Shown: piece by piece, positions 48,933-64,000 of the stretch
Position numbering within the stretch: position 1 is the stretch's first letter
How the letters are laid out: the number at the start of each line of letters is the position of its first letter
NCBI GenBank assembly: GCA_033584155.1
Contig: CP138355.1
Coordinates: 4,925,501-4,989,500, forward strand
Length of the DNA: 64,000 bases
Reading direction: 5' to 3'
From: Candidatus Electrothrix scaldis
GTDB lineage: Bacteria; Desulfobacterota; Desulfobulbia; Desulfobulbales; Desulfobulbaceae
The notes under the pieces: model-generated
Seen by the model: the letters and a program-made list of their open reading frames with translations, nothing else
Told to the model about the DNA's origin: nothing
Databases searched by the model: none
Position numbers and translations under genes: made by a program

Positions 48933-48936
48933 AACA

Positions 48937-49758: not shown

Positions 49759-49764
49759 AGAGAT

Positions 49765-50078: not shown

Positions 50079-50147
50079 TTAAAGAAAAGCGTTGAGTGCT
50101 AAACCGACAGCAGCACCACAGCAAGCACCGATTAAAAGCCAAGTCAT
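50079..50147 (-). CDS. 22-residue membrane peptide
   Basis: ATG 50147 overlaps the stop of the GTG-started gene upstream (ATGA). It encodes MTWLLIGACCGAAVGLALNA plus two residues, a single Gly/Ala-rich helix. An AAGGAGG site for a following short frame lies just after its stop. Such a tiny peptide could be a minor coat or accessory membrane peptide; confidence rests on coupling and hydrophobicity only. Confidence 0.35.
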   Translation of the reverse strand: MTWLLIGACCGAAVGLALNAFL

Positions 50148-50392: not shown

Positions 50393-50394
50393 GA

Positions 50395-50670: not shown

Positions 50671-50694
50671 ATTTTTTCCTTTTGAAAATGGTTA

Positions 50695-50988
50695 TTAAAA
50701 GAGACGAAGTTGGCCGCGTGCCTCCTTCATCGTTTGAGACTCGATAAAACGTTTCTTGCGGTAATACTCAGGGCCTTTCCTCTGCGATTCCTTATAACCG
50801 GAGCAAAGAACATCCATATCCCTGGTGTTGCTGTAGGAAAGAGATTCAGAAAACAAAGCAGTACCAGAAGTCAAAGAGCGGTTGATCCTGATTCGAAGGC
50901 GACATTTCCCACCTTTTACGCAGTTTTGGCATTTGTGACCGAAACGACGTACCGCATCACCGGAGAGCTTTGAAAATTTAATCCTCAT
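50695..50988 (-). CDS. Basic protein with cysteine pair
   Basis: A 97-residue, Arg/Lys-rich protein from ATG 50988 (GGAGG upstream). It has a HKCQNCVKGGKC motif near residues 18-29 that could bind zinc, and an RKGPEYYRKKRFIES helix. Unknown family. It overlaps the 47-residue gene upstream by 11 bp. A DNA-binding role is plausible. Confidence 0.55.
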   Translation of the reverse strand: MRIKFSKLSGDAVRRFGHKCQNCVKGGKCRLRIRINRSLTSGTALFSESLSYSNTRDMDVLCSGYKESQRKGPEYYRKKRFIESQTMKEARGQLRLF

Positions 50989-51121
50989 TGGAGGCCTCCG
51001 GGTCAAAAGTAAAGCCGTCGTCAAAGCCATCGTGAAAACCCCGTTTCCAGCCGAGCCGATAGCCGACTAAGAAAAAAAGAACGGAAGGAATAAAAACGGA
51101 AAGGAAAAAAAGAAGCTCCAT
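50978..51121 (-). CDS. 47-residue membrane protein
   Basis: ATG 51121, preceded by GGAG, begins MELLFFLSVFIPSVLFFLVG, one membrane helix, and continues with RLGWKRGFHDGFDDG and an acidic end. It starts two bases after the stop of the Cys-rich ORF upstream and overlaps the downstream gene, so it is part of the early operon. No family recognised. Confidence 0.5.
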   Translation of the reverse strand: MELLFFLSVFIPSVLFFLVGYRLGWKRGFHDGFDDGFTFDPEASNED

Positions 51122-51122
51122 A

Positions 51123-51506
51123 TCAAACTCCGGCAAAATCAAAGATAACAGCTTGACATTCCGGGCAAAAATCAGGGGCAAAGCAACAAACCTCATCAGG
51201 ACCACAGGAAGAAAAAACGGAGCTATTTTCTTGTTCCTGAGATGTTCCCTGTGTTAATGTGCGATTTTGCCCAATCGTCTGAAACGGAACACAAAGGCAA
51301 GGTGTTTCGTTATCATCTCCACACATAGCGGGAAACTTGTGGCAAAGACCATCTTGTTCCAAAATGGGAGAATGCGGTTTTGAGTGCGGACAAGGTATGT
51401 CGCAGGAATGGGCTAGCTCGCAGATGTACAAGGTGGTTAAGGTGTTAGGTTTAGTAATAATATCATCAAGAAAAGAAACTAATTGTTGACCGGAAGTTTT
51501 ACTCAT
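51123..51506 (-). CDS. Cysteine-rich hypothetical protein
   Basis: A 127-residue protein with twelve or more cysteines: LYICELAHSCDIPCPHSK, LCHKFPAMCG, TPCLCVPF and, near the end, SSCGPDEVCCFAPDFCPECQAV. The last pair resembles a zinc knuckle. No signal peptide is seen, so zinc binding in the cytoplasm is more likely than disulfides. Unknown family. Confidence 0.5.
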   Translation of the reverse strand: MSKTSGQQLVSFLDDIITKPNTLTTLYICELAHSCDIPCPHSKPHSPILEQDGLCHKFPAMCGDDNETPCLCVPFQTIGQNRTLTQGTSQEQENSSVFSSCGPDEVCCFAPDFCPECQAVIFDFAGV

Positions 51507-51515
51507 TGCTTAACC

Positions 51516-51728
51516 TCAAGGCTTAAAACGTAAGAACCAAGAAAGAATCCGACACTTCCAACAAAAAGGAGAAGGAACACCGTTAATATCTGGGATAGAA
51601 TCATGATATTCTTCATCCGATGGATAAGGATAACCGCAAAGGGATTTGTTACCTTTCTTCTGACAATGCCAAACCTCAGAGGAAAGCCCTTCTAAAGAAT
51701 CAGACTTTCGGAACCAATAATTTAGCAT
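51516..51728 (-). CDS. 70-residue hypothetical protein
   Basis: A small aromatic-rich protein beginning MLNYWFRKSDSLEGL, with a CQKKG and a CWKC cysteine pair near the end (PFCWKCRILSWFLRF). It overlaps the stop of the zinc-ribbon gene upstream by one base (TAATG), so the two are coupled. The cysteines may bind zinc. No family recognised. Confidence 0.45.
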   Translation of the reverse strand: MLNYWFRKSDSLEGLSSEVWHCQKKGNKSLCGYPYPSDEEYHDSIPDINGVPSPFCWKCRILSWFLRFKP

Positions 51729-52237
51729 TACTCACCCTCTGGTTGAGTTGAAAAAGCTTCCTGTGCAGCTTCTTCAGATAACCTTTCAAATTCTTGCCTA
51801 ACATAAGTCTTCACAGGGTCATAAAGACGATTAGTCGTGAAGACATAGACAACAAGAGGATACAAAAAGCTGAAAATGCCTAAAATTAAGAAGAATCCAG
51901 AAAAGGAAAAGTCAACATAGGCAAAAGCTGAAGAGAAAACAGAACCAAGAAAATAATAGAAATGGCCTGAACGAAATAACTTATTCAGAAATCCTCTCGA
52001 CGGCTGAGAGGAGGTAATCATTTCTATTTGGTCATCAGAGAAAAACCGCTCATTCCAACCACGAGCAAGTAAATCAAGGGAAGTAACACCGGGAGTAAAA
52101 GAACAACCACAAGGACAGCTAAGAGTTAAATAGCGATATTCTATGGTACCAATCAAATCGCTAGTGATAGGCTCGCCACATAAGGGGCAAGGTCTAAACG
52201 GAGTACTCGAAAAATCTTCTCTAATCTGAGCAATCAT
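51728..52237 (-). CDS. Zinc-ribbon membrane protein, Lar-like
   Basis: A 169-residue protein. Residues about 16-65 form a Lar-type zinc ribbon: CPLCGEPI, then LSCPCGCSF, then LLARGWNERF. Two membrane helices follow (FYYFLGSVFSSAFAYVDF and GFFLILGIFSFLYPLVVYVF). The last seven residues (STQPEGE) and the TGAGTAATG junction nearly repeat those of the lipoprotein gene upstream, so one end is a copy of the other. The ORF at 42346 has the same combination of ribbon and membrane helix. Confidence 0.65.
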   Translation of the reverse strand: MIAQIREDFSSTPFRPCPLCGEPITSDLIGTIEYRYLTLSCPCGCSFTPGVTSLDLLARGWNERFFSDDQIEMITSSQPSRGFLNKLFRSGHFYYFLGSVFSSAFAYVDFSFSGFFLILGIFSFLYPLVVYVFTTNRLYDPVKTYVRQEFERLSEEAAQEAFSTQPEGE

Positions 52238-52395
52238 TACTCACCCTTTGGTTGAGTTGAACAAGCTTCCCTTGCAGCAGCAGGGGAAAGATGGAAATAC
52301 TTCACGGCATCCACCTTGCAGGTGGAAGGCGGAGGTACAGCTCCGCAGCCAGTGAGCAGCAGGGATAAGGCGGAAAGGAGGATTATGTGATACAT
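52237..52395 (-). CDS. 52-residue lipoprotein
   Basis: ATG 52395 (or 52401) gives MYHIILLSALSLLLTGCG, a signal peptide with lipobox LLTGC, followed by VPPPSTCKVDAVKYFHLSP and the ending STQPKGE. It is the first gene of the minus-strand phage operon. Its last codons and stop are duplicated at the end of the next gene (51728). Small lipoproteins of phages can act in exclusion or lysis; here the role is unknown. Confidence 0.65.
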   Translation of the reverse strand: MYHIILLSALSLLLTGCGAVPPPSTCKVDAVKYFHLSPAAAREACSTQPKGE

Positions 52396-52401
52396 TGGCA
52401 T

Positions 52402-52473
52402 TCGAGATTAACTCGCTAAAGATGAAAAATCGAATCTGTTACCTTTTAATTATTTTTTAATCGAATTTGAAAC
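52402..52473. promoter_or_regulatory. Divergent control region of prophage 1
   Basis: The short AT-rich space between the minus-strand phage operon and the CI-like gene holds two direct repeats AATCGAAT at 52428-52435 and 52459-52466, 31 bp apart (about three helical turns), and a small palindrome CGAGATTAACTCG at 52403-52415. These are candidate operators of the repressor. No exact promoter could be fixed. Confidence 0.5.
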
Positions 52474-52908
52474 ATGCCGTCAAGCAAAAAAATCGAGAAA
52501 CAATCTTTTAACGAGATTGAAAGAAGAATAAAAGAAGAATTTAACTTGTCAAAATCAAGCCAAGTTATTGAAATGATTGGGATACCTCAAGGAACATACA
52601 GCACAAGAAAAAACAGAAATAATTTTTCAGAAGAATGGGCTGTAATCCTTCACATCCACTACAATTTACAAATTCAATGGATATTAAGTGGAAAAGGGAA
52701 GAAATACGTTAACGAAGAGAATTCAGCTGTAAAATGCGACTTCCTAGAAATTATCGATTCCTGGATATCGGAAATGAAAGAAAAAGAACCAGAAAGAGAA
52801 GCCTGGTTCAAAGTGGAATTTAAAAAATTATTTCCAGAATTCAAAATGTGGCTAGACAGAAAAAGCAATGCCGATGGGCGTAATACTTCAATTTCCAAAG
52901 TTGCCTAA
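52474..52908 (+). CDS. CI-like phage repressor
   Basis: A 144-residue protein. Residues about 15-75 fit the phage CI repressor helix-turn-helix family: RIKEEFNLSKSSQVIEMIGIPQGTYSTRKNRN, then WAVILHIHYNLQIQWILSGKGKKY, where WxLxG-type spacing is characteristic. The C-terminus is a short charged helix without a peptidase domain, so it is not LexA-like self-cleaving. It is divergent from the phage operon and likely keeps the prophage silent. Confidence 0.85.
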   Translation: MPSSKKIEKQSFNEIERRIKEEFNLSKSSQVIEMIGIPQGTYSTRKNRNNFSEEWAVILHIHYNLQIQWILSGKGKKYVNEENSAVKCDFLEIIDSWISEMKEKEPEREAWFKVEFKKLFPEFKMWLDRKSNADGRNTSISKVA

Positions 52909-52921
52909 ATAGGAGAGAAAA

Positions 52922-53197
52922 ATGATAAAAAGAATTATTTTCATATCTATACTTGTACTATCTGGAAATCAAATAACAAAAGCATCAACTACCGATGAAA
53001 TAATGGGGAAAAGCTGGCAAAAAGTATGTATAGAAAACAAAAAAAGCCTCGCAAGTTGTTGCAACAGGAGAGGAAATAAATGCAGAGACGAAGCAAAGAC
53101 CAAAAAAGAACAAAAGGCCTGCAAAGAAAAAACAAAAGAATGCAGAACAAAAACATTGAAGACTGGCCAAAAAAAAATAGAGATTAAGAAAAAATAA
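52922..53197 (+). CDS. Small secreted basic protein with cysteines
   Basis: A 91-residue protein with a signal peptide (IIFISILVLSG, probable cleavage after TKA). The mature part has six cysteines (VCIENKKSLASCCNRRGNKC, KACKEKTKEC) and ends in a Lys-rich tail. It lies 13 bp after the repressor, and may be expressed in the lysogen, for instance as a periplasmic immunity or exclusion factor; this is inference. Confidence 0.55.
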   Translation: MIKRIIFISILVLSGNQITKASTTDEIMGKSWQKVCIENKKSLASCCNRRGNKCRDEAKTKKEQKACKEKTKECRTKTLKTGQKKIEIKKK

Positions 53198-53210
53198 AAA
53201 AGGTGACCGG

Positions 53211-53681
53211 ATGGTGCAAAAAAGGCAGTACCCGGAAGAAGGAAAAGAGCTCTCAAAGATCACAAGAGTTATTCTCAACGACCTGAAAGGCCGAAGAGAA
53301 ATACAGCAGGAATTCAGAAAGAAAAAGCAAACTCGGCAGCGGAGAAGCTGGGAAATAAAAGAAGAGCCCACAGACCATACAGAGTGGATGCCTAAGCAGG
53401 TGCCCCAGGCAATGAAGCAGGCCATCAAGGAAACCGAAAAACAGAAACCCAAACCGAAGGCACCGAAACCGAAAGTTTCAGTCAGAAAGAAAAAAGACTC
53501 CTTTGAATATGTCGTTCAGCTGAAGAACGGAAAAACCATGAAGGCAAAGAGGGTAATGATAAAAAGAGACAAAGTGATACTGTTCAGCGAGGAAATGGAA
53601 ATAGCAGTACAGGCCAGCGCTGTACAATGGATCAAGGAAACCCGAGTACGAATGATGGTTCTCCAGTCGGGAACAGTTTAA
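53211..53681 (+). CDS. Basic hypothetical protein in the repressor operon
   Basis: A 156-residue, Lys/Arg/Gln-rich protein. The N-terminal half is helical and charged; a KPKPKAPKPKVSVRKKK linker precedes a compact beta part (FEYVVQLKNGKTMKAKRVMIKRDKVILFSEEME), which looks like an Hfq/SH3-like small barrel. It could bind nucleic acid. AGGTGA precedes the ATG. It ends just before the structured noncoding region. Confidence 0.55.
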   Translation: MVQKRQYPEEGKELSKITRVILNDLKGRREIQQEFRKKKQTRQRRSWEIKEEPTDHTEWMPKQVPQAMKQAIKETEKQKPKPKAPKPKVSVRKKKDSFEYVVQLKNGKTMKAKRVMIKRDKVILFSEEMEIAVQASAVQWIKETRVRMMVLQSGTV

Positions 53682-53811
53682 AAAATACCCACTCAGTAGT
53701 TAGAGTGCGGCGTTCCGCCGGGTACTTGACTGCACGAGAACCCGTCAAGAAAAAAACGTCGTCAGCACGGGCGACACTCTGGGCATGCGCGTCAGTCTGT
53801 TTGTTCCCTTG

Positions 53812-53868
53812 TTTTGATAGACTCATAAAGTGAGGCGCTGCGCGCATTAAAAAGATGGTCTATCAAAA
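53812..53868. repeat. Stem-loop 1 with conserved core
   Basis: TTTTGATAGAC (53812-53822) pairs with GTCTATCAAAA (53858-53868). The enclosed 27-base core at 53825-53851 (ATAAAGTGAGGCGCTGCGCG and 7 more) is repeated in stem-loop 2 with one difference. Confidence 0.8.
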
Positions 53869-53877
53869 AATATCTTA

Positions 53878-53926
53878 TCCAGGCATATAAAGTGTGGCGC
53901 TGCGCGCATTAAATATAAAGCCTGGA
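53878..53926. repeat. Stem-loop 2 with the same core but another stem
   Basis: TCCAGGC (53878-53884) pairs with GCCTGGA (53920-53926). Core 53887-53913 matches the core of stem-loop 1 at 26 of 27 positions, while the closing stems share nothing, so the pairing rather than the sequence has been kept. Confidence 0.8.
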
Positions 53927-54146
53927 ACGATAACAGGAACGGCACGACCTGCTTGCGCTAATGCCCGACGTGCTGCCCTGGTGTGCTGCCTAGTTTTTAG
54001 TTCTTGACTGAACCTCGCTTGCCAAGTGAAGGGAAGGTATTAGGAAGGAAAAACGAGTTTTCCTCCCGGATTTTTAAAAGAAGGGGATGCCTCCGGCGGT
54101 CACTTTAAAAAGTGAACAAATTTTTTGTAAATGGAGGATAGAAGAA

Positions 54147-54404
54147 ATGAAAGAAAGAAAACTACTAGAAATATTTGACTGTTTACTGGCGATCAAATGG
54201 AAAGTAAATGTTGCCATAGCAATAATCAGCTATGTGCTGCTGAATTGGATGGCAACCATTGAAACATCATTAGACCTCAGAAACATAGACCCTTTCTTCT
54301 CCGTATACATAGCCCTCAATGGAATAGGGAATATCTTTAAAGAAATAGTCCCTATTCTATTTATGATTCTGGCCATGGCCAGTTTCTTTTCAGGAAAAAA
54401 ATAA
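54147..54404 (+). CDS. 85-residue membrane protein
   Basis: ATG 54147, with GGAGG ten bases before, starts a protein with two membrane helices (VAIAIISYVLLNWMA and VPILFMILAMASFF). Unknown family. It follows the structured region and overlaps the convergent minus-strand ORF by 15 bp. It may be a lysogenic conversion or superinfection-exclusion protein. Confidence 0.5.
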   Translation: MKERKLLEIFDCLLAIKWKVNVAIAIISYVLLNWMATIETSLDLRNIDPFFSVYIALNGIGNIFKEIVPILFMILAMASFFSGKK

Positions 54405-54668
54405 ACGTTTAAACTCATCGCGAGAAAGGGAAGTCCGAGAAAACAAAAACTTCCCCAAGAAAACCAGGGTCAAAAAAACAAAAAGGTCAGAGGAAAGATA
54501 AGCATAGCGAACAACAAAAGCATAGATATCAGGATTCCCTCCAATCGGATAAATAGCACAAAGTATACTCCAGGCAAAATGCCCGCCGGATAAGATCCCG
54601 ATGAACAAGCCTGTATAAAAACCAAAAAAGGGATAGTTCAAAAAACGGAAGAGATTTTTTTTCGTCAT
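54390..54668 (-). CDS. 92-residue membrane protein
   Basis: ATG 54668 begins MTKKNLFRFLNYPFFGFYTG, with three hydrophobic segments (GFYTGLFIGILSGGHFAWSIL, AYLSSDLFVFLTLVFLG). Four GGCCCAAC repeats at one-helical-turn steps lie just upstream, like the pairs before the small ORFs at the left end. No family recognised. It is the last gene of prophage 1 before attR. Confidence 0.5.
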   Translation of the reverse strand: MTKKNLFRFLNYPFFGFYTGLFIGILSGGHFAWSILCAIYPIGGNPDIYAFVVRYAYLSSDLFVFLTLVFLGKFLFSRTSLSRDEFKRLFFS

Positions 54669-54686
54669 AAAAAAGCCTAAAATATC

Positions 54687-54726
54687 GTTGGGCCACGGTT
54701 GGGCCTGTTGGGCCGCTTGTTGGGCC
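54687..54726. repeat. Four GTTGGGCC repeats
   Basis: Copies begin at 54687, 54698, 54707 and 54719, stepping 11, 9 and 12 bp, so they lie roughly on one face of the helix. Same motif as at 42372-42391, 42689-42707 and 42819-42837. Confidence 0.75.
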
Positions 54727-54804
54727 TTTTGTCTGCAAATGAGTCGAAAAAGACCGATTTTAAATAGCCTAAAACATGAAAAATCAGTTAAATAGGATAT
54801 ATAA

Positions 54805-54880
54805 ACCGGCCTTTCACGCCGGCAACACCGGTTCAAATCCGGTTGGGGACGCCATTTATATCAAGGACTTAGCATTCATT
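54805..54880. repeat. attR of prophage 1 / att junction with prophage 2
   Basis: Identical over 76 bp to 42275-42350 (3' half of tRNA-Glu plus the terminator arm). No tRNA 5' half precedes it. As an integrase follows directly at the same distance as in prophage 1, it also serves as the left end of prophage 2. Confidence 0.93.
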
Positions 54881-54923
54881 TGCTAAATCCTTTTTTTGTT
54901 TGTTGGGTTGATTGTTGGGTTTC

Positions 54924-55931
54924 TCAACCAAAAACATCAACAGCACTTCTCACACTTTCAAGCCGATGAATGTAACGTTCAGTCGTTGAAAGCTGCCGAT
55001 GACGTAATATTGTCTGAACATCCAGAAGAGGCACTTTATTTTTTATAAGAATAGAGGCGGACAGATGCCGGATCGCATGGAGGCCGAATTTTTCCACCTC
55101 GGCTTTTCGACAAAGACGCGAAAGCCATCTCTGACGTGCAACATAAGGTAGCCTTGTCATCGGATCAGGAAAAACCCAGTCGCCGAAAACAGAAAGCATA
55201 AAAACAGACAGCTCCTTAAAAAGCGTCGGGCTCATCGGCACCCAGTCATAGGACAAAGTACCATCCTTTCTTTTTCTGGTATAGAGTCTCACTTTCTTCT
55301 GTGACAAATCCACATCCTCAACACGCAACCTGAATATTTCATTACGACGGGCTGCCAAATGCAAATAACAGAGCAACATTACCCTATCCTGTTCTGATTC
55401 TGCCTGATCATAGACTTTCCAAAAATCCTTTTCAGGGGGAATGTAACGAGCTGAACGAACCTCTGAAAAACGATCAACGAGAAAAGGATTCCGAGTAGGA
55501 AAGCCCGGTATATATTGAGCCGCCCAATTCCAGGCGGCCACAAAATTTTTCCTTTCCTTATTAGCTGCATATCCAGAACGCTTTTTCGCCTGCTCAGCAA
55601 GATGATCAAGAACAGTTCGCTTATGAAGATGGTCAACAGGAAGAAAACGGTCAACCGATTCAAAAAAGGAACGGAAAGCGCGCTGTTTCTCCTCGTATGT
55701 TTTCTTTGAATGCTTCAATTTGGAGTAGTCCAAATACTGAACCGCCCAGTCACCTAAAGATATTATGAGGATCTGTTGTTCTTTTTCCTTTGCCTGCGCT
55801 TCGAGATGGGCGAGCTTCTTTCTTTCCCACTCCACCGCCTCTTTCTTGGTCTTGCATGACTTCGTGAACTTCTGATCGTCGTAATAAACCTGCGCTGTCC
55901 AGTTGCCTCTCTGCTTGTTCCGATAAGGCAT
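54924..55931 (-). CDS. int: Tyrosine-recombinase integrase of prophage 2
   Basis: A 335-residue homologue of the prophage 1 integrase, with long identical blocks (KNFVAAWNWAAQYIPGFP, RKRKDG, LHAIRHLSASILIKNKV). Catalytic Arg (AARRNEIF), HxxR (HAIRH), His (RHRQLS) and Tyr (TTERYIH) are intact. ATG 55931 follows GAGGTTAATTG. The N-terminal DNA-binding part differs more (YRNKQRGNWTAQVYYDDQK), though both use the same tRNA site. Confidence 0.95.
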   Translation of the reverse strand: MPYRNKQRGNWTAQVYYDDQKFTKSCKTKKEAVEWERKKLAHLEAQAKEKEQQILIISLGDWAVQYLDYSKLKHSKKTYEEKQRAFRSFFESVDRFLPVDHLHKRTVLDHLAEQAKKRSGYAANKERKNFVAAWNWAAQYIPGFPTRNPFLVDRFSEVRSARYIPPEKDFWKVYDQAESEQDRVMLLCYLHLAARRNEIFRLRVEDVDLSQKKVRLYTRKRKDGTLSYDWVPMSPTLFKELSVFMLSVFGDWVFPDPMTRLPYVARQRWLSRLCRKAEVEKFGLHAIRHLSASILIKNKVPLLDVQTILRHRQLSTTERYIHRLESVRSAVDVFG

Positions 55932-56091
55932 CAATTAACCTCTTTTCAAAAAAACGATATCCTTTACCGACTTTGACCCCGCCGAGTCGGGCATAATTAG
56001 TGCGAACTGTTGTTACACTACATTGCAGATACTCAGCAACATCACGGGCCGACATACAACGGCCCAGATGTTCTTCAAGATGTAAGCTCAT
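55750..56091 (-). CDS. Helix-turn-helix protein overlapping the integrase gene
   Basis: A 113-residue homologue of the HTH protein of prophage 1: RCMSARDVAEYLQCSVTTVRTNYARLGGVKVGKGYRF. It too overlaps the integrase start by about 180 bp and ends DPHNIFR. The conservation of this ending, inside the integrase reading frame, shows that both frames are used. Likely excisionase or integration control. Confidence 0.8.
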   Translation of the reverse strand: MSLHLEEHLGRCMSARDVAEYLQCSVTTVRTNYARLGGVKVGKGYRFFEKRLIDALSEQAERQLDSAGLLRRSEVHEVMQDQERGGGVGKKEARPSRSAGKGKRTTDPHNIFR

Positions 56092-56340
56092 CTAAAACCC
56101 CCTATCAGAAAGCCCCTTAAGTACTTTAAGAGCGTTTTGAACTTCCGAGAGTTGAAGGGCGTAACGTTCCTTTTCCCGATTCGTTTTTTCCAGCTTTTCA
56201 CGGAGCATGTATATTTCTCTCTGATAAAAACCCCATGACATGATCATATGTTTCAGCTTGCCGCTGAATGTGGAATAGTCAGGGAGAAGACGTTTCAGTG
56301 TTTTAATTTCCTTGTCGGAAAGTCTCAGAGTAAGGGCCAT
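56092..56340 (-). CDS. 82-residue protein, possible ribbon-helix-helix regulator
   Basis: ATG 56340 (GAGGTACACA upstream) starts MALTLRLSDKEIKTLKRLLPDYSTFSGKLKHMI in pattern: a short strand then helices as in ribbon-helix-helix proteins or mobilisation accessory proteins. The rest is a coiled coil (LREKLEKTNREKERYALQLSEV). It ends one base before the HTH gene start. Prophage 1 has no counterpart here. It may bind the 44-bp spaced repeats just upstream. Confidence 0.5.
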   Translation of the reverse strand: MALTLRLSDKEIKTLKRLLPDYSTFSGKLKHMIMSWGFYQREIYMLREKLEKTNREKERYALQLSEVQNALKVLKGLSDRGF

Positions 56341-56353
56341 TGTGTACCTCATT

Positions 56354-56451
56354 TGCAATCATTTTGATTCGTCCGGAAGAAACCCGGGAAAGAAAAATGC
56401 AATCATTTATCAGCTGCTAAATCAGCCTGGCTTCAGGAGAATGCAATCATT
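56354..56451. repeat. Three TGCAATCATT repeats at exact 44-bp steps
   Basis: The 10-mer TGCAATCATT occurs at 56354, 56398 and 56442. The second lies between genes and the third inside the end of the 94-residue ORF. Equal 44-bp steps suggest a protein-binding array, perhaps an autoregulatory operator of the gene at 56092. Confidence 0.65.
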
Positions 56452-56706
56452 CCTAACCATACGGGAGTCATGCGGGTCAGGATGAAACAAATCATAAGCC
56501 TCTTCAGAAGAAAGATTTGCAAGATCTGGAGCTAATGAGTTCAAAGCTTCCCAGGCCCAGCAACGATGCTTATGTATTTGACCATTAAAGTATTGAATTT
56601 CGGTAAGGGATGCCAAGCACTGATATAGCCGCTCGTTGGTCAATTCAGGAACTTCAACCTTAGGTACATACTCAACACCATCAATAAGAACCACAGGCAT
56701 AATCAT
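56422..56706 (-). CDS. 94-residue hypothetical phage protein
   Basis: Starts with ATG overlapping the rep stop (ATGA; a second ATG is at 56700). The sequence begins with a beta hairpin (VVLIDGVEYVPKVEVPEL) and has a helical middle with HKHRCWAWEALNSLAPDL. The unit VVLIDGVEYVPK is seen in many small phage proteins, but I do not recognise a family. Function unknown. Confidence 0.5.
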   Translation of the reverse strand: MIMPVVLIDGVEYVPKVEVPELTNERLYQCLASLTEIQYFNGQIHKHRCWAWEALNSLAPDLANLSSEEAYDLFHPDPHDSRMVRNDCILLKPG

Positions 56707-58013
56707 CCCCCCTGAATATACGGTCCATGAAACTCTTCATGCTCCATACCGTGTGGCCAACATTCATTAAGCTTCTTTTTCATCTTCTCCAGAAGAACAG
56801 GTTGCCCTGTTTTTTCATCAAGCTCTTTTGCTTTGAGCAGGCACCATTCAGCAACAAATCCTTGCAGATAATCAACAATGCAGTTTACATCCAGAGGACA
56901 ACGCTCTATTGCAGCCAGGTTGAGAGCACAGCCCACCATTTGGTCGGCCAGCTGGTACTTATCCTTTTGCGGAAGAATGCGTTGACGAGTGACAGGTTGA
57001 TACGTTCCCCAGTCGATAGACTGAAGAACAACCCACCAGGGATGGACAAGGGCTCTGTCCTGGTGGCGGTTCTCGCGATCCGGGGGAATTTCGCAGAACA
57101 TGGCCCATTCACCAACACAATAGGCCCATATGCCGTCGAGCTTTTCAAACAGATCCTCAAGGGTATCAACCTTGAGTTGTCGGAGTACAGGGCGACGGAG
57201 CTGAAATTCAACGCGGGTAACAGGCTGATTATTGTATTCATCCTTGCCCCAGACAGAGGCAAAAACAGACTGTTTTGCACCATCTTTTTTTAGTTCAAGC
57301 ACCTTGTTATAGACACGCAGGGAAATATCACCCTCACCAGCAGATAAGCCGCTTTCATGGAGGGAGCCCACAGTATCGATCATTTTATCATCAGAAAGGC
57401 CGAGTGCCCCTTCAGACTGATGCATGGAGATCCCGGTGAACTCGCGCCGGTCATAGTAGAAATGAAATTTGTTAGCGCGGGTGATCCAGAGTTCTGGATC
57501 TTGTATCCCGAGGTCTGAGAGTTCCAGGCCGATGCAGTCAGCGCAGGGGTGAACCTCGGATAGTCCGTTCTTGAGGATCTTGCCGCTATATTCTTCAACG
57601 AGGTGTTCTATCATCTCGACAGTATCCCTGTAGCCGGGATTCCAGCAGGAAACAGAGCCGATATCTACCCAGATGTTCGGGGTCTCCATCCAGTTCTTGC
57701 GCACAGAGATAAAAACATGGACATCAGCGCGGGAGATATGAAAAGTAAAACCACCTGTTCGTCCAGTAGTGTGCATTATCCAGCCGTCCTTTTCAAAACC
57801 TTTGAGCGATACAGGAACAGAGGTATGCAACTCTTGCGCTTTTCTCTTGAGTTCGCCCAGTGTATCAAAAAACTTTTGGTTAGTTGGCCACTGGACATGG
57901 AGCCCGTATTTCAAACGATCAAGGCCAATGGCGAGTTGGACCCCCCATGTTATTCTATCATGGGATCTGACAAGGTCTAAGACTGCGTTATTTTTCAGTT
58001 GTACGTTATTCAT
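56703..58013 (-). CDS. Replication initiation protein of prophage 2 (rolling-circle type)
   Basis: A 436-residue homologue of the prophage 1 replication protein. Shared blocks are VDIGSVSCWNPGY, SLRVYNKVLEL and VTRVEFQLRR, with IWAYCVGEWAMF after. ATG 58013 follows AGGAGG. The likely origin lies either in the hairpin-rich gap just upstream (58014-58323) or in the shared region at 60401-60655. A helicase gene follows upstream, an arrangement not seen in prophage 1. Confidence 0.8.
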   Translation of the reverse strand: MNNVQLKNNAVLDLVRSHDRITWGVQLAIGLDRLKYGLHVQWPTNQKFFDTLGELKRKAQELHTSVPVSLKGFEKDGWIMHTTGRTGGFTFHISRADVHVFISVRKNWMETPNIWVDIGSVSCWNPGYRDTVEMIEHLVEEYSGKILKNGLSEVHPCADCIGLELSDLGIQDPELWITRANKFHFYYDRREFTGISMHQSEGALGLSDDKMIDTVGSLHESGLSAGEGDISLRVYNKVLELKKDGAKQSVFASVWGKDEYNNQPVTRVEFQLRRPVLRQLKVDTLEDLFEKLDGIWAYCVGEWAMFCEIPPDRENRHQDRALVHPWWVVLQSIDWGTYQPVTRQRILPQKDKYQLADQMVGCALNLAAIERCPLDVNCIVDYLQGFVAEWCLLKAKELDEKTGQPVLLEKMKKKLNECWPHGMEHEEFHGPYIQGG

Positions 58014-58323
58014 GGATGCCTCCTAAAGAATGAATGTTACAATTTTGTAGCTCTCAAAAATAAAAACCACGCCGCCAAGAGCAACGATCCAAGGAAGAGG
58101 AACGGGCGGCGTGACTTAGGAGCTCTGTTTGGTCGCGGGCTTGCTGATGAGCGTGTACTATTGAGAACCTCCGAGAAGCGTCCAAGGACCGCTCCCGGAG
58201 TTCCCGTGAGCTTTTGACTAAGTACCGCCCTTGAGTTACGCTGTTGAACGCACTCAGGGCAGCAGGCGGCTTTTCTGTACACAGGATCAGTATTTTTCTT
58301 TTTTTCTTTTTTTCTTTTTTCTC
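58014..58323. other. Noncoding gap with inverted repeats, candidate origin
   Basis: No gene is seen in these 310 bp. It holds CACGCCGCC/GGCGGCGTG (about 58070-58115), a compact stem with CTCCG/CGGAG, AGCG/CGCT and TCC/GGA (about 58170-58201), ACTTAG/CTAAGT around it, and a long T-rich tract (58288-58321) just after the helicase stop on the other side. Placed between the replication protein and helicase genes, it is a reasonable origin candidate. Confidence 0.45.
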
Positions 58324-60354
58324 CTAAAACGGAGCTGATTCTTCCACCTTCCGGTGTGATTTCCTGTAGGTCACTTTCTCGTAGAGCCGGGGGCTAACCT
58401 GTTGAAGGAAAGGAGACAGGGAGGCCTGATGGTACTTCCGGTCCGGGGTGCGGATCAGTTCGGGGTACATGAGGAAGAGCTGTTGTTTTGCACGTGTAGC
58501 AGCCACGTAGAGCAGGCGGCGTTCTTCTTCCAGTTCTTCGTCATCTGCGTTCTGACGGGGAAAGAGTCCATCAGCAAGACCGATAAGGAAGACAACATCC
58601 CATTCCAGGCCTTTGGCGGAATGGATGGTGGACAGGACAAGTTTTTTCTTTTTCGGGTCCTGGTTAGTTGTTGCTTCGGTTACCTCTGGCGGATCGAGGG
58701 CCGTGTCATCTATGAATGACTGAATATCGTAGTATTCAGCAGCCAGAGTGCGGACATATTCCAGATCATGGCGGCGTTTGGGGTAATCATCGTGGTAGAT
58801 GCGTTCGAATGCTGCCTCGTACCAGGTCATGACCAGGTCGAAGCGGGCCACCACAGTGAGGCCGGGGGCGCGGAGCTTGAGGAGCATATCAGCCAGGGCG
58901 TGCAGATTACCTATCCATTTGGATCGACTTTTGTACTCCTTGAGAGCTGCAATCGGGTCTTTGTGGTCAAGCACGGTTGAGAGGATATTGCCCACGGTTT
59001 TAGGTCCAACTTTTTCCAACATCAGAAGAATGCGGGTCAGGGAGAGGTTATCGTAGGCATTGAGGAGGAGACGGAAAAAGGCCAGCACGTCTTTGACGTG
59101 GGCCGACTCGGTGAACTTCATTCCGCCGCGTTTATCAAAATCGATGTTTTTTGCAAGAAGCTCGATCTCCAGGTTGTAGGAATGGAAGCCAGAGCGGAAC
59201 AGCACTGCGATGTTTTCCTGTGGGGTGCCTGCGGTAATCAGCTCATGGATCGTAGAGGCCACGAGGCGGGCCTCGTCTTTTTCCGATGAGACCTTATATA
59301 ATAGGGGGAGCTCTTTTCCGGGAATATCACTGAACAGCTCTTTTGTATAACGGGTTTCAGCCTGGGCTATAACCGCATTGGTCAGAGCCAGGATAGGACG
59401 AACTGAGCGGTAGTTCTGTTCAAGCTTGATGGTCTGGGCTCCGGGGTATTGGTCTGGGAACTGCATGATATTTTCAAAATCAGCACCCCGGAAACTGTAG
59501 ATAGACTGGGCATCATCACCCACGGCCATGATATTATTGTGTTCAAGAGCTAACAGGCCCACGATTTCCGCCTGAATCAAGTTGGTATCCTGGTATTCAT
59601 CAACCAGGATGTAGCGGAACTGGGAGCAAATGCGCTCCTGGGCAATATCAGATTCCGAGAGGAGGCGGCGAAGGTTAACCAGCAGATCGTCATAATCCAT
59701 GAGCCGGTTGTTTTCTTTGAAGGCTTGATATTCACGATGAACAGCAAGGATGTCATGGGTATACTCCACAAGGTGGGTATGTTCTCTCATGATGATATCC
59801 TGAACCGGATAGGATTTATTGACCGCAGCGGAAAGGATGTTGAACAGAACTCGTTTTGCCGGAAAGCGTTTCCCGGCTCCGGCAAGATTCAATGAGGTCC
59901 TGATATGGTTGATGATCCCTTCTGAATCGCCCCGGTCGATAATGGTAAAATCAGAAGGGAAGCCGAGGAAATAGCCGTGTCTTCTCAGGAGGATGTTTGC
60001 CACTGAGTGAAAGGTACCACCCATAACCCCGGTGCAGGAGCAGCCGGAGAGGTTCGCGGCCCGGTCCAGCATCTCGCGGGCAGCGCGGCGGGTGAAGGTG
60101 AGAAGCAAAACGGATTCAGGGGAAACGCCCCGACTCAACAGCCATGCGGTACGATGCACAAGGGTCATGGTTTTTCCGCTACCTGCTCCGGCGATAACCA
60201 GCACCGGCCCCTCTCCGTGGGTAACAGCTGCATGCTGGGCCTGGTTCAGGGAGCTGAGGTCAAGGGTCGGTGCAAGTGCATCAAAATGGGAAAAACGATC
60301 ATACGGCATGAAGTATGAGTCCGGGTAGGTGGTGTGTTGTTCGTTCATATTCAT
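58324..60354 (-). CDS. UvrD/Rep-family DNA helicase encoded by prophage 2
   Basis: About 676 residues, a superfamily 1A helicase. All motifs are present: LNQAQHAAV (Q motif), AGAGSGKT (I), LTFTRRAAREM (Ia), LVDEYQDTN (II), VGDDAQSIYSFRGA (III), EQNYRSVRPIL (IV), STIHSAKGLEWDVVFLI (V) and YVAATRAKQQL (VI). ATG 60354, with AGGATTT upstream, fits better than 60426, whose extension overlaps the conserved hairpins. Filamentous phages normally borrow the host Rep helicase for rolling-circle replication, so an own copy beside the replication gene is notable. A coincidental accessory gene remains possible. Confidence 0.9.
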   Translation of the reverse strand: MNMNEQHTTYPDSYFMPYDRFSHFDALAPTLDLSSLNQAQHAAVTHGEGPVLVIAGAGSGKTMTLVHRTAWLLSRGVSPESVLLLTFTRRAAREMLDRAANLSGCSCTGVMGGTFHSVANILLRRHGYFLGFPSDFTIIDRGDSEGIINHIRTSLNLAGAGKRFPAKRVLFNILSAAVNKSYPVQDIIMREHTHLVEYTHDILAVHREYQAFKENNRLMDYDDLLVNLRRLLSESDIAQERICSQFRYILVDEYQDTNLIQAEIVGLLALEHNNIMAVGDDAQSIYSFRGADFENIMQFPDQYPGAQTIKLEQNYRSVRPILALTNAVIAQAETRYTKELFSDIPGKELPLLYKVSSEKDEARLVASTIHELITAGTPQENIAVLFRSGFHSYNLEIELLAKNIDFDKRGGMKFTESAHVKDVLAFFRLLLNAYDNLSLTRILLMLEKVGPKTVGNILSTVLDHKDPIAALKEYKSRSKWIGNLHALADMLLKLRAPGLTVVARFDLVMTWYEAAFERIYHDDYPKRRHDLEYVRTLAAEYYDIQSFIDDTALDPPEVTEATTNQDPKKKKLVLSTIHSAKGLEWDVVFLIGLADGLFPRQNADDEELEEERRLLYVAATRAKQQLFLMYPELIRTPDRKYHQASLSPFLQQVSPRLYEKVTYRKSHRKVEESAPF

Positions 60355-60400
60355 AATAAATCCTCTCGTATCGGTTGTGAGGGAACATTGTTTCATTAAA

Positions 60401-60655
60401 GTGCGGCTGCGCCGGGTACTCTCCATTTCAGGAACCCGTCAAGAAAAAAAATACTTTGCTTTTAACGAGTTCAGCGTTATGCGGGCTATGTTGCTCGTAA
60501 ATGAAATCATCATTTTTTTCTTGACTGAACCCTTCCATTGCGAGTGAAAAGGGTTTAATCAAAAGGGAAAACAAGTTTCCCTTTTGGTTTTGGGTTAAAG
60601 GGATGCCTCCGGCGGCCAGCTTTAAAAAGCTGGGGCAAATTTTGTGGGATTATTG
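60401..60655 (+). other. Structured noncoding region of prophage 2, homologous to 53705-54130
   Basis: Elements in the same order as in prophage 1: GTGCGGCTGCGCCGGGTAC hairpin (60401-60419); CGGGT/ACCCG; GTCAAGAAAAAAA (60438-60450) and its perfect inverse TTTTTTTCTTGAC (60513-60525); hairpin AAAAGGGAAA-ACAAG-TTTCCCTTTT (60561-60585); GGGATGCCTCCGGCGG; hairpin CCAGCTTT-AA-AAAGCTGG (60616-60633), then CAAATTTTGTG. The double core stem-loops of prophage 1 are absent. Stems differ from prophage 1 by paired changes. Confidence 0.75.
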
Positions 60656-60660
60656 AAAAA

Positions 60661-60789
60661 TGGCCGGGTGAGGATTTGAACCTCACATGAGCTGTCGGGC
60701 GGCGGGACCTCCTACCCCACTACACACAGGACTTAGCCAGGTGCTTCTCACTCTCTCCCAATAGCGTCTACCCATTCCGCCACCGGCCA
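60661..60789 (-). tRNA. Atypical tRNA-Leu-like element
   Basis: Read on the minus strand, the ends pair perfectly (TGGCCGG with CCGGCCA). The 5' part has a Leu-type D-arm (TGGCGGAATGGGTAGACGC) and the 3' part a good T-arm (TGAGG TTCAAAT CCTCA). Between them are about 75 bases, far more than a class II tRNA needs, with no clean anticodon stem; CTAAGTC could be a loop with anticodon AAG, but its stem has a mismatch and two wobbles. It may be a decayed tRNA, one with an insertion, or a structural mimic. Confidence 0.4.
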
Positions 60790-60799
60790 ATATCAAATA

Positions 60800-61108
60800 T
60801 CACCTGTAATAAATAACCCCGTCATCACAGCGATAACCGGTAACATCCGGTTGAGTTGTGATAAAAAAACCGGTAGCAAGATTACCCTTAGGAGTTACGA
60901 GGTGACCAAAGGAAGAAACATTTTCCCCCTCCTTATGACTCACGATTTCGCATTTATGCTCCACTGCGAAATTCAGGAACTCCGCAAGAGCGATAAGCTC
61001 AGAGTGCTGCTGATAAGAAATGAGCGAGAGAAGAATGGAGCAGAGCAATAAAAGAATCGCTGTATATCTGCTGTAAAAGATGCTATCAATTTTGCTTAAA
61101 AAATCCAT
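60800..61108 (-). CDS. 102-residue membrane-anchored protein
   Basis: ATG 61108 (GGGAG upstream) starts MDFLSKIDSIFYSRYTAILLL in pattern, one membrane helix (ILLLLCSILLSLISY), then a periplasmic part (EFLNFAVEHKCEIVSHKEG, TTQPDVTGYRCDDGVIYYR) with two cysteines. Such small pilin-like or accessory proteins accompany secretin genes; no family recognised. It is coupled to the gene upstream. Confidence 0.5.
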   Translation of the reverse strand: MDFLSKIDSIFYSRYTAILLLLCSILLSLISYQQHSELIALAEFLNFAVEHKCEIVSHKEGENVSSFGHLVTPKGNLATGFFITTQPDVTGYRCDDGVIYYR

Positions 61109-61109
61109 A

Positions 61110-61457
61110 TCAGGCTCCCTTCTGGACATATGAAGGAACAGCACCAGAGCAGGCGAATGAATCAACGATAAAATCCACCACCGCATCAGGGACCGAGACG
61201 GTTTTATAGTCATCGGAAAGGGTCCCGGAATGGTCCAACTCTGCAAATTCATCCTCGTGATATACGCTTCCGTCCGGGTAGATCCGGTATTGTGTTTCGT
61301 ACATAGCTGACTCATTCCACATGTCTTTTATTTTTAGGTAGAAATAAACAAAGGGAGAAAAAACAGCCGTCAAGCCGAACGGAAAAAGCAAAAGAAACCC
61401 GAACAGCTTAAAACAAACCCACAAAGGGTTTTCTCCAAGGAAAGGATCTGACATCAT
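61110..61457 (-). CDS. 115-residue membrane protein
   Basis: Starts at ATG 61457 with AGGAGG seven bases before. One or two membrane helices (FKLFGFLLLFPFGLTAVFSPFVYFYL), then an acidic soluble part (TQYRIYPDGSVYHEDEFAELDHSG). It overlaps the FtsK-gamma-like gene by four bases. Unknown function. Confidence 0.5.
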   Translation of the reverse strand: MMSDPFLGENPLWVCFKLFGFLLLFPFGLTAVFSPFVYFYLKIKDMWNESAMYETQYRIYPDGSVYHEDEFAELDHSGTLSDDYKTVSVPDAVVDFIVDSFACSGAVPSYVQKGA

Positions 61458-61687
61458 AACAAATCCTCCTCTGAGAAATCGGGACACTCAACAAGTCTGT
61501 ATTGAGAAGGACGCTCTACATCTCGAATCAGGCCACCCTGTTCAATAAAGCGTTCAACGGTTCTGGCAGCCTGGTTGTATCCAACACGACAAAGCCGCTG
61601 AACAGTGCTGATGCCGAAAAGAGTATCTCGGGGTGCGGTACGTTGTAAGATGGAAATATTAAGGTCAAGGAATTGGTCGGGATTCAT
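61454..61687 (-). CDS. Stand-alone FtsK-gamma-like winged-helix protein
   Basis: A 77-residue protein. The segment STVQRLCRVGYNQAARTVE followed by RFIEQGGLIRD closely follows the FtsK gamma domain (compare ISGVQRQFRIGYNRAARIIEQ of E. coli FtsK), a winged helix that reads KOPS sequences and activates XerD. Here it stands alone, overlapping the secretin gene (ATGA). Because Zot/pI ATPases are related to the FtsK-HerA motor class, this could be a separate DNA-reading subunit. It may also steer Xer-type recombination. Only the fold is secure. Confidence 0.75.
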   Translation of the reverse strand: MNPDQFLDLNISILQRTAPRDTLFGISTVQRLCRVGYNQAARTVERFIEQGGLIRDVERPSQYRLVECPDFSEEDLL

Positions 61688-63498
61688 AACAAAGCCCCCT
61701 CGAAGGCCTGCGGTGCGGAAACAGTCTTCACTCTGAGAGAAACAACCAGATGCAGGGATTCGGTTTTCTCGGATTTATAGGAGAAGAGCGGACCGAGTAC
61801 GGGGAGCTCTCCGAGGAGGGGCACCTTTTCTATGGAAGTGCCGGTTTCATCGGATCGGAGCCCGCCAAGCAGGATAGTGTCGCCATCGCCTACAAGCACG
61901 GTGGAGGAAAGACTTTTTTTATCCATGACCAGATCCACAGCCCCATCAAGCTGTGAATCCTCAGATACGTTGCTCAGTTCCTGGTTAACGGTCAGGGCGA
62001 TAAAATCACCATCGGGCTGAATAGAAGGTTTTACAGAAAAACTCAGGCCCACGTCGTGTCGATCAACCGTGATGGTATCCTTTTCCTTGTCCTCCTCTTC
62101 TTCTTCGTCTGAACTCTTTTTTGATTTGGTGATAAAGGGCACATTGCGGCCTATCATAATGTGGGCTTCATGGCCGTTAAGTACGGTGAGTACCGGGGAG
62201 GAAATGATTTTGCCTTTGCCTGAACTGTCCTTGGCGGTCAGATCCACATTGACGATTCCGTCAAAGAAATTGAGGAGCATGCCAGGATTTGAGGAAAGGA
62301 CCATTGAGGACAAGCCATCATTGATGGAGCCGGACAGGTCGGAACGGGTAAAGGCAAAGCGGGCGCCCAGCTCCCGGAATTGTGAGTCTGTGAGATAAGC
62401 AACCACGGCCTCGACCTTGACCTGTAATCCGGTCCCGTCAAGACGGCGGGCAACAGCAACGGCATGGGAAACAATGGCAGCTTCACCGGCCAGGTGCAGC
62501 CGATTTTCAGAATAGGCATGAATGCGCAGGTCACCAAACATTTCCTGTAAAATCGGCTCAACCTCATCAGAAGACACAGTATGGAGGAAAACAACTGCGT
62601 CGTTCTGGCCCTGATCAGGTTTGTCCAGAGCAGCAAGCACGGTGCGGATAATGTCCTGTTGTTTCCTGGTGCCAAAGACCAGAATGGCGCTGTGCCAGTA
62701 ATCAGGGAAAACAGGAAAACTTGAGGAAACCGTGCCGGAGCCGGATTTATTTTTGGATTTACCCTTTGCTTTCTTACCAGAAGAGCCGCCAGAGTTGCTT
62801 TTTTTACTGCTTCCTTTGAAGATCTGGAGATCAGAAAGGGCCTGAACAGCGCGTTTAACAGAAATATGCTCCACGGTTAAAGAGAGAACCCCGGATTCAT
62901 CGCGCAGCGCGGGCAGATCAATACGTTTCAAAAGGGTGATAAACTCAGTGACCAGCTTAGGAGAACCGGAAAAGCTCACCATCTGATTATCACCGTAGCC
63001 ATACACAGCCATCTTGTTCTTATAGAGTATTTCCGCTGAATCCATGACCGCATCAGCGCTGAGGTTTTTGAGCTGATAGGTGCCCGAAGAAACACCCATT
63101 GATCCGGCTGAAAGAGTCGGATCTGTTTTGATGGACCAGAAATCGTTTTCGCCTTCAATCAATGAAACTGTGTAACCCAATGAGGTCAGCACATCAATAA
63201 AGGTGGGAATCAGTTCATCTTTAGGGATATTCCTCTGTGACCAGGTCACAGGGGTTTCAATATCATCGTCAAAGACAAAGGCGGCCCCGGTAAACTCAGA
63301 GACCATAAGTAACAGCTCAGAGAGCTGGGCCTTGTCAAAATCCACGCTGACCATCTGTGGAGGAAGTTTTGGCATTTTTTCAAAAACATCCTGCTTGACC
63401 TGTTCCTGTTTTGCGACATCATCCAAGGAAAGACACAGGGAAGGAAACGCAGAGAACAGAAGGAACAGCAGCAGAGAAAGAAAGAGTGTTCGTTTCAT
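61684..63498 (-). CDS. Secretin (pIV/GspD/PilQ-like)
   Basis: A 604-residue outer-membrane channel for phage exit. Signal peptide (LFLSLLLFLLFSAFPSLCLS), N-domains (VSVDFDKAQLSELLLMVSEFTG; AVQALSDLQIF), a Gly/Ser/Lys-rich linker near 230-250 (KKSNSGGSSGKKAKGKSKNKSG) and the C-terminal secretin domain (VLTVLNGHEAHIMIGRNVPF, HDVGLSFSVKPSI, STVLVGDGDTILLGGLRSDE). The linker is unusually long and basic. Only prophage 2 carries a secretin in the window, overlapped by zot at its start. Confidence 0.92.
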   Translation of the reverse strand: MKRTLFLSLLLFLLFSAFPSLCLSLDDVAKQEQVKQDVFEKMPKLPPQMVSVDFDKAQLSELLLMVSEFTGAAFVFDDDIETPVTWSQRNIPKDELIPTFIDVLTSLGYTVSLIEGENDFWSIKTDPTLSAGSMGVSSGTYQLKNLSADAVMDSAEILYKNKMAVYGYGDNQMVSFSGSPKLVTEFITLLKRIDLPALRDESGVLSLTVEHISVKRAVQALSDLQIFKGSSKKSNSGGSSGKKAKGKSKNKSGSGTVSSSFPVFPDYWHSAILVFGTRKQQDIIRTVLAALDKPDQGQNDAVVFLHTVSSDEVEPILQEMFGDLRIHAYSENRLHLAGEAAIVSHAVAVARRLDGTGLQVKVEAVVAYLTDSQFRELGARFAFTRSDLSGSINDGLSSMVLSSNPGMLLNFFDGIVNVDLTAKDSSGKGKIISSPVLTVLNGHEAHIMIGRNVPFITKSKKSSDEEEEEDKEKDTITVDRHDVGLSFSVKPSIQPDGDFIALTVNQELSNVSEDSQLDGAVDLVMDKKSLSSTVLVGDGDTILLGGLRSDETGTSIEKVPLLGELPVLGPLFSYKSEKTESLHLVVSLRVKTVSAPQAFEGALL

Positions 63499-64000
63499 TG
63501 TTCGTCCTTTTTCGTTGGTTGTTTGTTTTTGTTAGTTATTCGGTTAGTAAAAAGCGTCTGGCCAGTCGCTGAATAGGTTCTATATATATTAGGGGTGTGC
63601 TCGGAATAAGGGTTCAGGTCGGTAACAGTTTTGGTGACCTTTGATGCGGGTTTGGGTTGATTTGCTATCTGCTTGGAAAGCTTTTCTGTACCGAAAAGGT
63701 CACCCCGGATCATGCCGGATTGAAAAAGCATATAGAGAAAGAGACCGAAAACCAACGGGATAGCATAGAAAATGGGGTGTTTCAGCACATTAGCATGCTT
63801 CATGATGCCCAGTTCTTTGACGTCAGAGGCAACATAGGACTTGTAACAAAGGAAAATAATATTGTGATAGGTACGGGCATTTTTGGAAAGTGGAGGCCCG
63901 CCTGTATCTTCTCCACCGTAGGCGTAACAGAGGTATTTTTTCTGCACCAGGGAGCCGAAAAAGTTGATTTTCCTATACACATAGGTCCATTCCACCAGGG
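63495..64000 (-). CDS. zot: Zot-type assembly ATPase of prophage 2, C-terminal part
   Basis: The frame is open through the right edge. The visible part has the region after the ATPase (TYVYRKINFFGSLVQKKYLCY, then ARTYHNIIFLCYKSYV), a membrane helix (FYAIPLVFGLFLYMLF) and a periplasmic tail. This order is that of Zot proteins, whose Walker motifs would lie beyond 64000. GTG 63995 inside the frame is not the true start. It overlaps the secretin start by four bases. Confidence 0.75.
   Translation of the reverse strand, partial: LVEWTYVYRKINFFGSLVQKKYLCYAYGGEDTGGPPLSKNARTYHNIIFLCYKSYVASDVKELGIMKHANVLKHPIFYAIPLVFGLFLYMLFQSGMIRGDLFGTEKLSKQIANQPKPASKVTKTVTDLNPYSEHTPNIYRTYSATGQTLFTNRITNKNKQPTKKDEQ

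Follow-up and report, generated by a model that had tools for sequence, protein, structure and literature searches.

A covarying hairpin module of Desulfobulbales filamentous prophages and plasmids, a candidate single-strand DNA promoter or priming site

Two filamentous-type prophages lie in tandem in the genome of Candidatus Electrothrix scaldis (Desulfobulbales), and both carry a noncoding, hairpin-rich block, which raises the question of whether this block is kept for its structure and, if so, whether that structure belongs to DNA or to RNA and what it does for the elements that carry it. The stretch analysed here (the window) comprises 64,000 nucleotides (nt) of contig CP138355.1 (positions 4,925,501 to 4,989,500 of the forward strand), and the block is hereafter called the module. 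An earlier note on this DNA had proposed that the stems of the two copies change in paired fashion, indicating selection on structure, and had offered an origin, a packaging signal or a regulatory RNA as its function. Beyond the window, six more copies, either of the module or of the core hairpin, were found, one in a third prophage of the same genome and one each in five other genomes, in which the structure is kept and the letters have changed.

The pieces on which the earlier proposal was built (the hairpins, GGGATGCCTCCGGCGG, the GTCAAGAA/TTCTTGAC arms and the CGGC hairpins) were all located in both window copies, and they are placed as follows.

53703-54130, plus strand: module copy 1 of prophage 1, with the CGGC hairpin first and the CAAATTTTTTGTAA tail last, insert included
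53708-53720, plus strand: 5' hairpin CGGCG-TTC-CGCCG, prophage 1
53744-53756, plus strand: 5' arm of the central stem, GTCAAGAAAAAAA, prophage 1 (GTCAAGAA being 53744-53751)
53757-53990 (ends approximate), plus strand: element B, an insert in the central-stem loop of prophage 1 forming a long imperfect hairpin
54001-54008, plus strand: 3' arm of the central stem, TTCTTGAC, with TTGACT, prophage 1
54047-54063, plus strand: hairpin GGAAAA-ACGAG-TTTTCC, prophage 1
54084-54099, plus strand: GGGATGCCTCCGGCGG with a small GCC-TCC-GGC hairpin, prophage 1; this is the 3' motif, also present in dispersed repeats elsewhere
54100-54115, plus strand: 3' hairpin TCACTTT-AA-AAAGTGA, prophage 1
60399-60646, plus strand: module copy 2 (prophage 2), 248 nt
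60404-60414, plus strand: 5' hairpin CGGC-TGC-GCCG, prophage 2
60438-60450, plus strand: 5' arm of the central stem, GTCAAGAAAAAAA, prophage 2 (GTCAAGAA being 60438-60445)
60513-60525, plus strand: 3' arm of the central stem, TTTTTTTCTTGAC, T-tract plus TTGACT, prophage 2 (TTCTTGAC being 60518-60525)
60565-60581, plus strand: hairpin GGGAAA-ACAAG-TTTCCC, prophage 2
60600-60615, plus strand: GGGATGCCTCCGGCGG, prophage 2
60617-60632, plus strand: 3' hairpin CAGCTTT-AA-AAAGCTG, prophage 2

Between these two copies, the paired change previously claimed comes down to one A-T pair replaced by G-C (GGAAAA/GGGAAA), while the second hairpin differs also by an inserted pair; prophages 1 and 2 alone are therefore thin evidence, because the clean compensated change between them is small, and more copies were needed.

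Seen on the plus strand of the window, the module follows a common order of 5' hairpin, outer stem, internal loop, inner stem, variable loop, A/T-rich hairpin and 3' part, the latter consisting of GATGCCTCCGGCGG or a near form, a terminal hairpin, CAAA and a T-rich tail. Its length is 236-290 nt, except for copy 1, which reaches 428 nt owing to its insert and is also matched by an RNA covariance model. The 5' hairpin has the form CGGC...GCCG in prophages and CGCCGG...CCGGCG in the plasmid type, the internal loop reads AACC/GAAC in six of eight copies (those of genomes G114 and G045 deviate), and the inner stem can be written as GTNAAG-N-A-tract / T-tract-N'-CTTGAC. The variable loop spans 48-68 nt in the six copies measured and is filled by element B in prophage 1, so that the arms, from outer end to outer end, lie 74-94 nt apart in seven copies and 265 nt apart in prophage 1 (the GTCAAGAA/TTCTTGAC arms enclose 72 nt in prophage 2 and 249 nt in prophage 1). 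The GATGCCTCCGGCGG part holds the GCC-TCC-GGC hairpin, of which the G114 version is CCC-TCC-GGG. Most of the stretch enclosed in prophage 1 is an insert that is complementary to itself; its counterpart in the third prophage is found 7 kb away from the block there (locus L015, about 9975-10130).

Evidence for structure comes from the central stem, where 74 of 84 cells (12 pairs in seven copies) are Watson-Crick in an alignment made by hand, with helices picked by eye, a procedure which favours Watson-Crick cells. When the 3' arms were re-dealt among the copies in all 5040 permutations, the mean was 58 and only two permutations reached 74, namely the true one and, necessarily, the swap of two copies with identical 3' arms. 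This wider set of copies thus upholds the selection on structure which the earlier note had suspected. With eight copies and 92 cells, 81 are Watson-Crick, none is G-U, one is A-C, six are A-G and four are C-T; the A-G cells all fall at one position, facing the G of TTGAC, and the partner arm otherwise pairs (mismatch in 6/8). Pairs of the outer stem occur in up to four Watson-Crick forms, the outermost being T-A (two copies), C-G, A-T, G-C or a C-T mismatch (two copies), and one inner pair varies between A-T (six), T-A and C-G. The CTTGAC arm is identical in all eight copies and faces GTAAAG in six and GTCAAG in two; since it is fixed while its partner varies, this arm seems to be read as sequence. 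TTGAC(T/A) lies inside the stem in 8/8 copies, being a short motif that is weak alone, and a T-tract precedes CTTGAC in seven of the eight and is broken in prophage 1.

Further copies were sought in several ways. In the 5.09 Mb genome of Ca. E. scaldis (G000), the 14-mer GATGCCTCCGGCGG occurs three times, once per block (reversed control, 0), and the third block is located at G000:C1:3586824-3587076 on the minus strand, in a third prophage, the replication genes of this prophage and of prophage 1 being 46% identical. With a covariance model built from four sequences of the 3' half, matches were obtained in 6 of 257 genomes of the order: G000 with its three copies, G059, G040, G113, G114 and, weakly, G230 (E 0.0094), which was dropped since the motif was missing on reading. 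Across the phylum, a seven-sequence model matched two of 395 genomes, G000 and G376, the latter (E 0.0014) being discarded for the same reason; these genome searches with models used strict filters, by which weak matches are lost. The two-arm pattern was matched in 9 of 249 genomes of the order, six being real by their flanks and three not; because the reversed control also gave matches (4), this pattern alone proves nothing. In viral contigs it was matched 37 times: L364 (IMG/VR) has the hairpin of G045 with every letter the same, the flanks shown included, and the others, shown only if pairing N or GT, are presumed chance. The long hairpin pattern had no match in viral contigs, and one part of copy 1 had no blastn match among 50,697 phage records. 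Candidates set aside in viral contigs include at least 120 stretches with GATGCCTCCGGCGG, judged by inspection to be chance or short repeats, and seven with T-tract-TTGAC-GAACC (model E 0.0024-0.074), in which the remainder of the module is missing. A weak match in locus L292 (E 0.063; 0.18), which may be close kin of L293, was likewise rejected, reading as an ordinary promoter without the stem. Literature searches, including searches by motif letters, found no published description of the module.

All eight carriers look mobile: of the inovirus-like prophages, four hold the module and a fifth its core hairpin, whereas the other three modules are on a plasmid (one) and on contigs (two). The copy of G059, a congener, is in a prophage which by position forms one lineage with the third prophage, and the G045 prophage (L330) holds the core hairpin alone, in the gap before its replication gene. 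The plasmid is NC_020305 of Desulfocapsa sulfexigens (genome G113, locus L296). The G114 contig has matches to HU, YdjM, AAA, integrase, primase and nuclease, and the DNA of the G040 contig resembles that of the G114 contig, HU and integrase stretches included; the HU-like stretch of G040, recognised by this similarity, stands about 750 nt away from the module. Upstream of the module, the plasmid type has an extra noncoding domain of some 500 nt, in which paired changes are likewise visible by eye; on the D. sulfexigens plasmid this 5' domain recurs inverted and 98% identical at 28604-29115 and, in part only, at 3390-3805 and 26073-26135. The recurrence at 28604-29115 stops 7 nt short of the 5' hairpin, and the block is therefore a separable unit. 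In G097, a related plasmid contig carries the 5' domain twice, and the block was not found in it. Long noncoding repeats that flank gene modules were observed on NC_020305 (3390-3805, 26073-26135, 28604-29115 and 34866-35674) and on G097 contig C6 (L347, L348); one plasmid gene module so flanked is a set annotated as BamHI restriction-modification, and these repeats look like module-exchange sites.

The module is not a signal common to inoviruses in general. Of 249 genomes of the order, 33 encode relatives of the replication protein. In 14 loci examined with their flanks (12 replication-protein loci and two viral contigs, some flanks being cut by contig ends which could hide copies), the hairpin was sought by model, by blastn and by a targeted scan for inverted repeats (shuffled controls 0, 0, 0, 0 and 1), and it was recovered in a single one, that of G045. 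Together with the four known prophage copies, this gives 5 of 18 inovirus-like loci. In all five inovirus cases the module runs opposite to the replication gene.

Is the structure that of a DNA or of an RNA? With DNA parameters, every one of seven copies folds on either strand below all 100 dinucleotide shuffles, with z from -4.5 to -11.2 on the plus strand and from -4.5 to -8.7 on the minus strand; with RNA parameters, z ranges from -2.7 to -9.9 and from -4.0 to -9.4, respectively. G-U pairs make up 62 of 691 predicted pairs on the plus strand and 46 of 646 on the minus strand, shuffles having been made for the plus strand only. The plus-strand share is below the shuffle mean (0.12-0.17) in 7/7 copies, and shuffles as low numbered 0-5 of 60 in six copies and 22 of 60 in G059. 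The module has no Rfam match at gathering scores; in copy 2, a SNORD121A match to the stem, at E 0.0055 and 32.4 bits against a gathering score of 44, was rejected as chance. On balance, the structure seems to be kept at the DNA level, because the strands fold alike with DNA parameters and G-U pairs are scarce.

As for the 3' end of the module, it has a wider life of its own. In the genome collection, CCTCCGGNGG-hairpin-CAAA was found in at least 119 stretches, some of them chance, and the motif-rich taxa among the matches listed are Desulfoluna, Desulfatibacillum, Aminicenantes, SAR324 and Pseudomonas sp. NFACC02, where the repeats are about 50-60 nt long and lack the rest of the block. For 59 sites of a stricter form, simple open reading frame (ORF) calls made 39 intergenic (22 tandem, 12 convergent and 5 divergent), while 13 lay within an ORF and 7 at the edge of one. 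Within the order, 8 of 252 genomes have the motif, in seven block copies and four matches in G074, G147 and G160, and its three occurrences in G000 are only in the three prophage blocks. The earlier note held that a general genomic repeat unrelated to phages would speak against its proposal; such a repeat does exist, for the 3' end only (CCTCCGGCGG-hairpin-CAAA elsewhere). In Desulfoluna, TGCCTCCGGCGG-type hairpins occur near Y1-transposase matches in two of ten loci (L402, 733 minus and 1899 plus; L410, 752), which is possibly a REP-type system, chance being conceivable as the motif is common there.

Inoviruses have a single-stranded phase. The reading we prefer, to which we give somewhat less than an even chance, is that the module folds when single-stranded and that RNA polymerase primes the complementary strand there, in the manner of single-strand origins (sso), of the Frpo/ssi promoters and of the minus origin of filamentous phages. 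The element would be single-stranded as a phage strand entering the cell or displaced in rolling-circle replication, or as a transferred plasmid strand; the central stem would then present a double-stranded T-tract and TTGAC(T/A) to the host RNA polymerase, the resulting transcript would serve as primer for the complementary strand, and the loop would tolerate foreign material, such as the insert of prophage 1, provided that it closes on itself. We infer single-strand action, polymerase binding and priming because the fixed CTTGAC and the T-tract match the -35 and UP elements inside the Frpo fold and because in one sso the function went with the fold. Frpo promoters are characterised by -35, -10 and UP elements inside such a fold (PMC11541004), and the sso study describes an sso that was functional after its sequence had been replaced and its fold retained (PMC4595007).

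Several results weigh against priming by RNA polymerase at a folded single strand. A -10 element (at least 4/6 matches, A2/T6, spacing 15-19 from the arm hexamer) was found in one of eight copies on the plus strand and in one of seven on the minus strand, where one arm was missed, both at spacing 15, and promoter scans of the two window copies returned no promoter using TTGACT. The Desulfocapsa plasmid is typed as non-mobilizable, and a single-stranded phase is only putative for it. The hairpin is missing from 13 of the 18 inovirus-like loci examined, and the orientation count rests on about four independent cases. A blastn search of copy 2 against 72,556 PLSDB plasmids gave 13 records at E<=1, none covering 80%; that of Desulfocapsa is a real copy and the other 12, unread, are presumed chance. 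With RNA parameters, moreover, z is lower on the minus strand in six of seven copies, so that, if the module acts as RNA, the minus strand is favoured.

This last result bears on a structured regulatory RNA, more probably on the minus strand, such as a leader of the helicase gene in prophage 2 or of the HTH-integrase genes in the third prophage. Placement also speaks for it: about 45 nt separate copy 2 from position 60354, the likely start codon of the minus-strand UvrD/Rep-type helicase gene which it precedes, and in the third prophage the module precedes a likely opposite-strand start codon by about 22 nt; the copies of prophage 1 and of the plasmid are not placed likewise before a gene. The RNA proposed by the earlier note is disfavoured by strand-alike DNA folds, by a G-U share that is low on the plus strand and smaller still on the minus, and by the lack of an Rfam match, the RNA parameters being what speaks for a minus-strand product; we regard such an RNA as quite unlikely. 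More serious, though still unlikely, is a DNA signal for recombination or transposition, in which a non-autonomous element (REP/MITE or IS200/IS605-like ends), or else an integrase site that folds, hitch-hikes on mobile elements. It would account for a separable module in varied gene contexts, for hairpins near both module ends and for a 3' motif dispersed in other phyla, sometimes near Y1-transposase matches as in Desulfoluna. In G000, however, where the motif is confined to the prophages, none of five Y1_Tnp matches adjoins a block, the window prophages have tRNA-type attachment sites of their own, and target duplication is not shown.

The remaining alternatives are both very unlikely in our estimation. 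Hairpin-rich noncoding DNA of filamentous phages commonly carries packaging and origin signals, and the constant orientation against the replication gene would suit either a filamentous-phage packaging signal or a plus-strand origin. A packaging signal, which the earlier note had also proposed, is nevertheless disfavoured because the module is missing from most of the inovirus-like loci examined and occurs on integrase/primase contigs as well as on a plasmid for which no phage structural gene is annotated. An origin is possible in the sense of the complementary-strand initiation site preferred above. Element B, present in prophages 1 and 3, is a candidate phage origin or packaging signal and a likelier phage-only signal than the module; it has internal 27-nt direct copies in prophage 1, is differently placed in the two prophages, and did not match the plasmid 5' domain (model R2, no match at E<=1 in the window or L015). 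The module might also be a site at which a DNA-architectural or partition protein binds duplex DNA, recognising a cruciform or the inverted T-tract/TTGAC arms, given that its palindromes are strand-symmetric under DNA parameters and that an HU-family gene accompanies it in G114 and on the Desulfocapsa plasmid, as does the HU-like stretch in G040; the varying arm spacing, with its extreme in prophage 1, argues against such a site.

With regard to known systems, the large structured RNAs GOLLD, ROOL and HEARO are also noncoding, hairpin-rich and borne by phages and plasmids; the module differs in having no counterpart in Rfam and in folding symmetrically on both strands under DNA parameters. The REP-like CCTCCGGCGG-hairpin-CAAA repeats of Desulfoluna, Aminicenantes and SAR324, whose hairpin stems vary pairwise, match its last 35-50 nt or so, but they are short and lack the rest of the module, and the motif is not dispersed in G000. 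Frpo/ssi of F-like plasmids are also noncoding DNA of mobile elements that folds as a strand, with a stem holding a -35-like TTGAC(T/A), an A/T-rich UP-like tract and their complements; the module, known here from sequence alone, differs from them in having no convincing -10, no blastn similarity found with copy 2 and a plasmid carrier typed as non-mobilizable. The sso of rolling-circle plasmids and ICEBs1 (PMC4595007) resembles it in features, as an exchangeable stem-loop which keeps its fold, changes its letters and is patchy among relatives, and so does the minus origin of Ff phages. It is possible, with the balance tilted against it, that the module represents an undescribed class of single-stranded DNA promoter or primer, a UP-plus-TTGAC hairpin swapped between Desulfobulbales filamentous phages and plasmids, with the same complementary-strand start by the host polymerase.

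The two host prophages are delimited by copies of GGTTCAAATCCGGTTGGGGACGCC.

42300-54853, no strand: prophage 1 (filamentous type), between the GGTTCAAATCCGGTTGGGGACGCC copies at 42300 and 54830
54830-64000 and beyond the window, no strand: prophage 2 (filamentous type), from GGTTCAAATCCGGTTGGGGACGCC at 54830 to the next copy at 73775 (continued coordinate)

The Zot-family protein of prophage 1 (45684-46742) was tested by profile (Pfam E 1.6e-12; PHROG E 2.5e-30), and it alone; the other Zot, HTH and integrase labels used here are given by resemblance or position. A tRNA remnant at 54787-54843 (Rfam 29.1 bits, gathering 29) was taken as part of the attachment site. The helicase gene mentioned above (58324-60354, minus; search from 60351) lies within filamentous prophage 2, beside its replication gene. 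Just past the block of prophage 2, a tRNA-like sequence (60660-60790, minus) has GGCCGG/CCGGCC acceptor-like ends and the T-arm GTGAGG-TTCAAAT-CCTCAC, with no ARAGORN call and a fold z of only -1.16, and between this block and the secretin gene stands a small protein (61454-61687, minus) which we take to resemble an FtsK-gamma winged helix. A CRISPR-like array of 11 repeats of about 37 nt, at a spacing of 70-74, lies beside the third prophage (L015 5314-6097).

To our knowledge, few phages and plasmids have yielded single-strand initiation sites, which are hard to find since their sequence is not kept. In this regard, a covarying module that is strand-symmetric with DNA parameters, in filamentous prophages and plasmids of sulfate-reducer relatives, is a small and testable candidate, and the combination of strand-alike folding with DNA parameters, few G-U pairs and one arm fixed in sequence may serve as a search recipe for similar sites.

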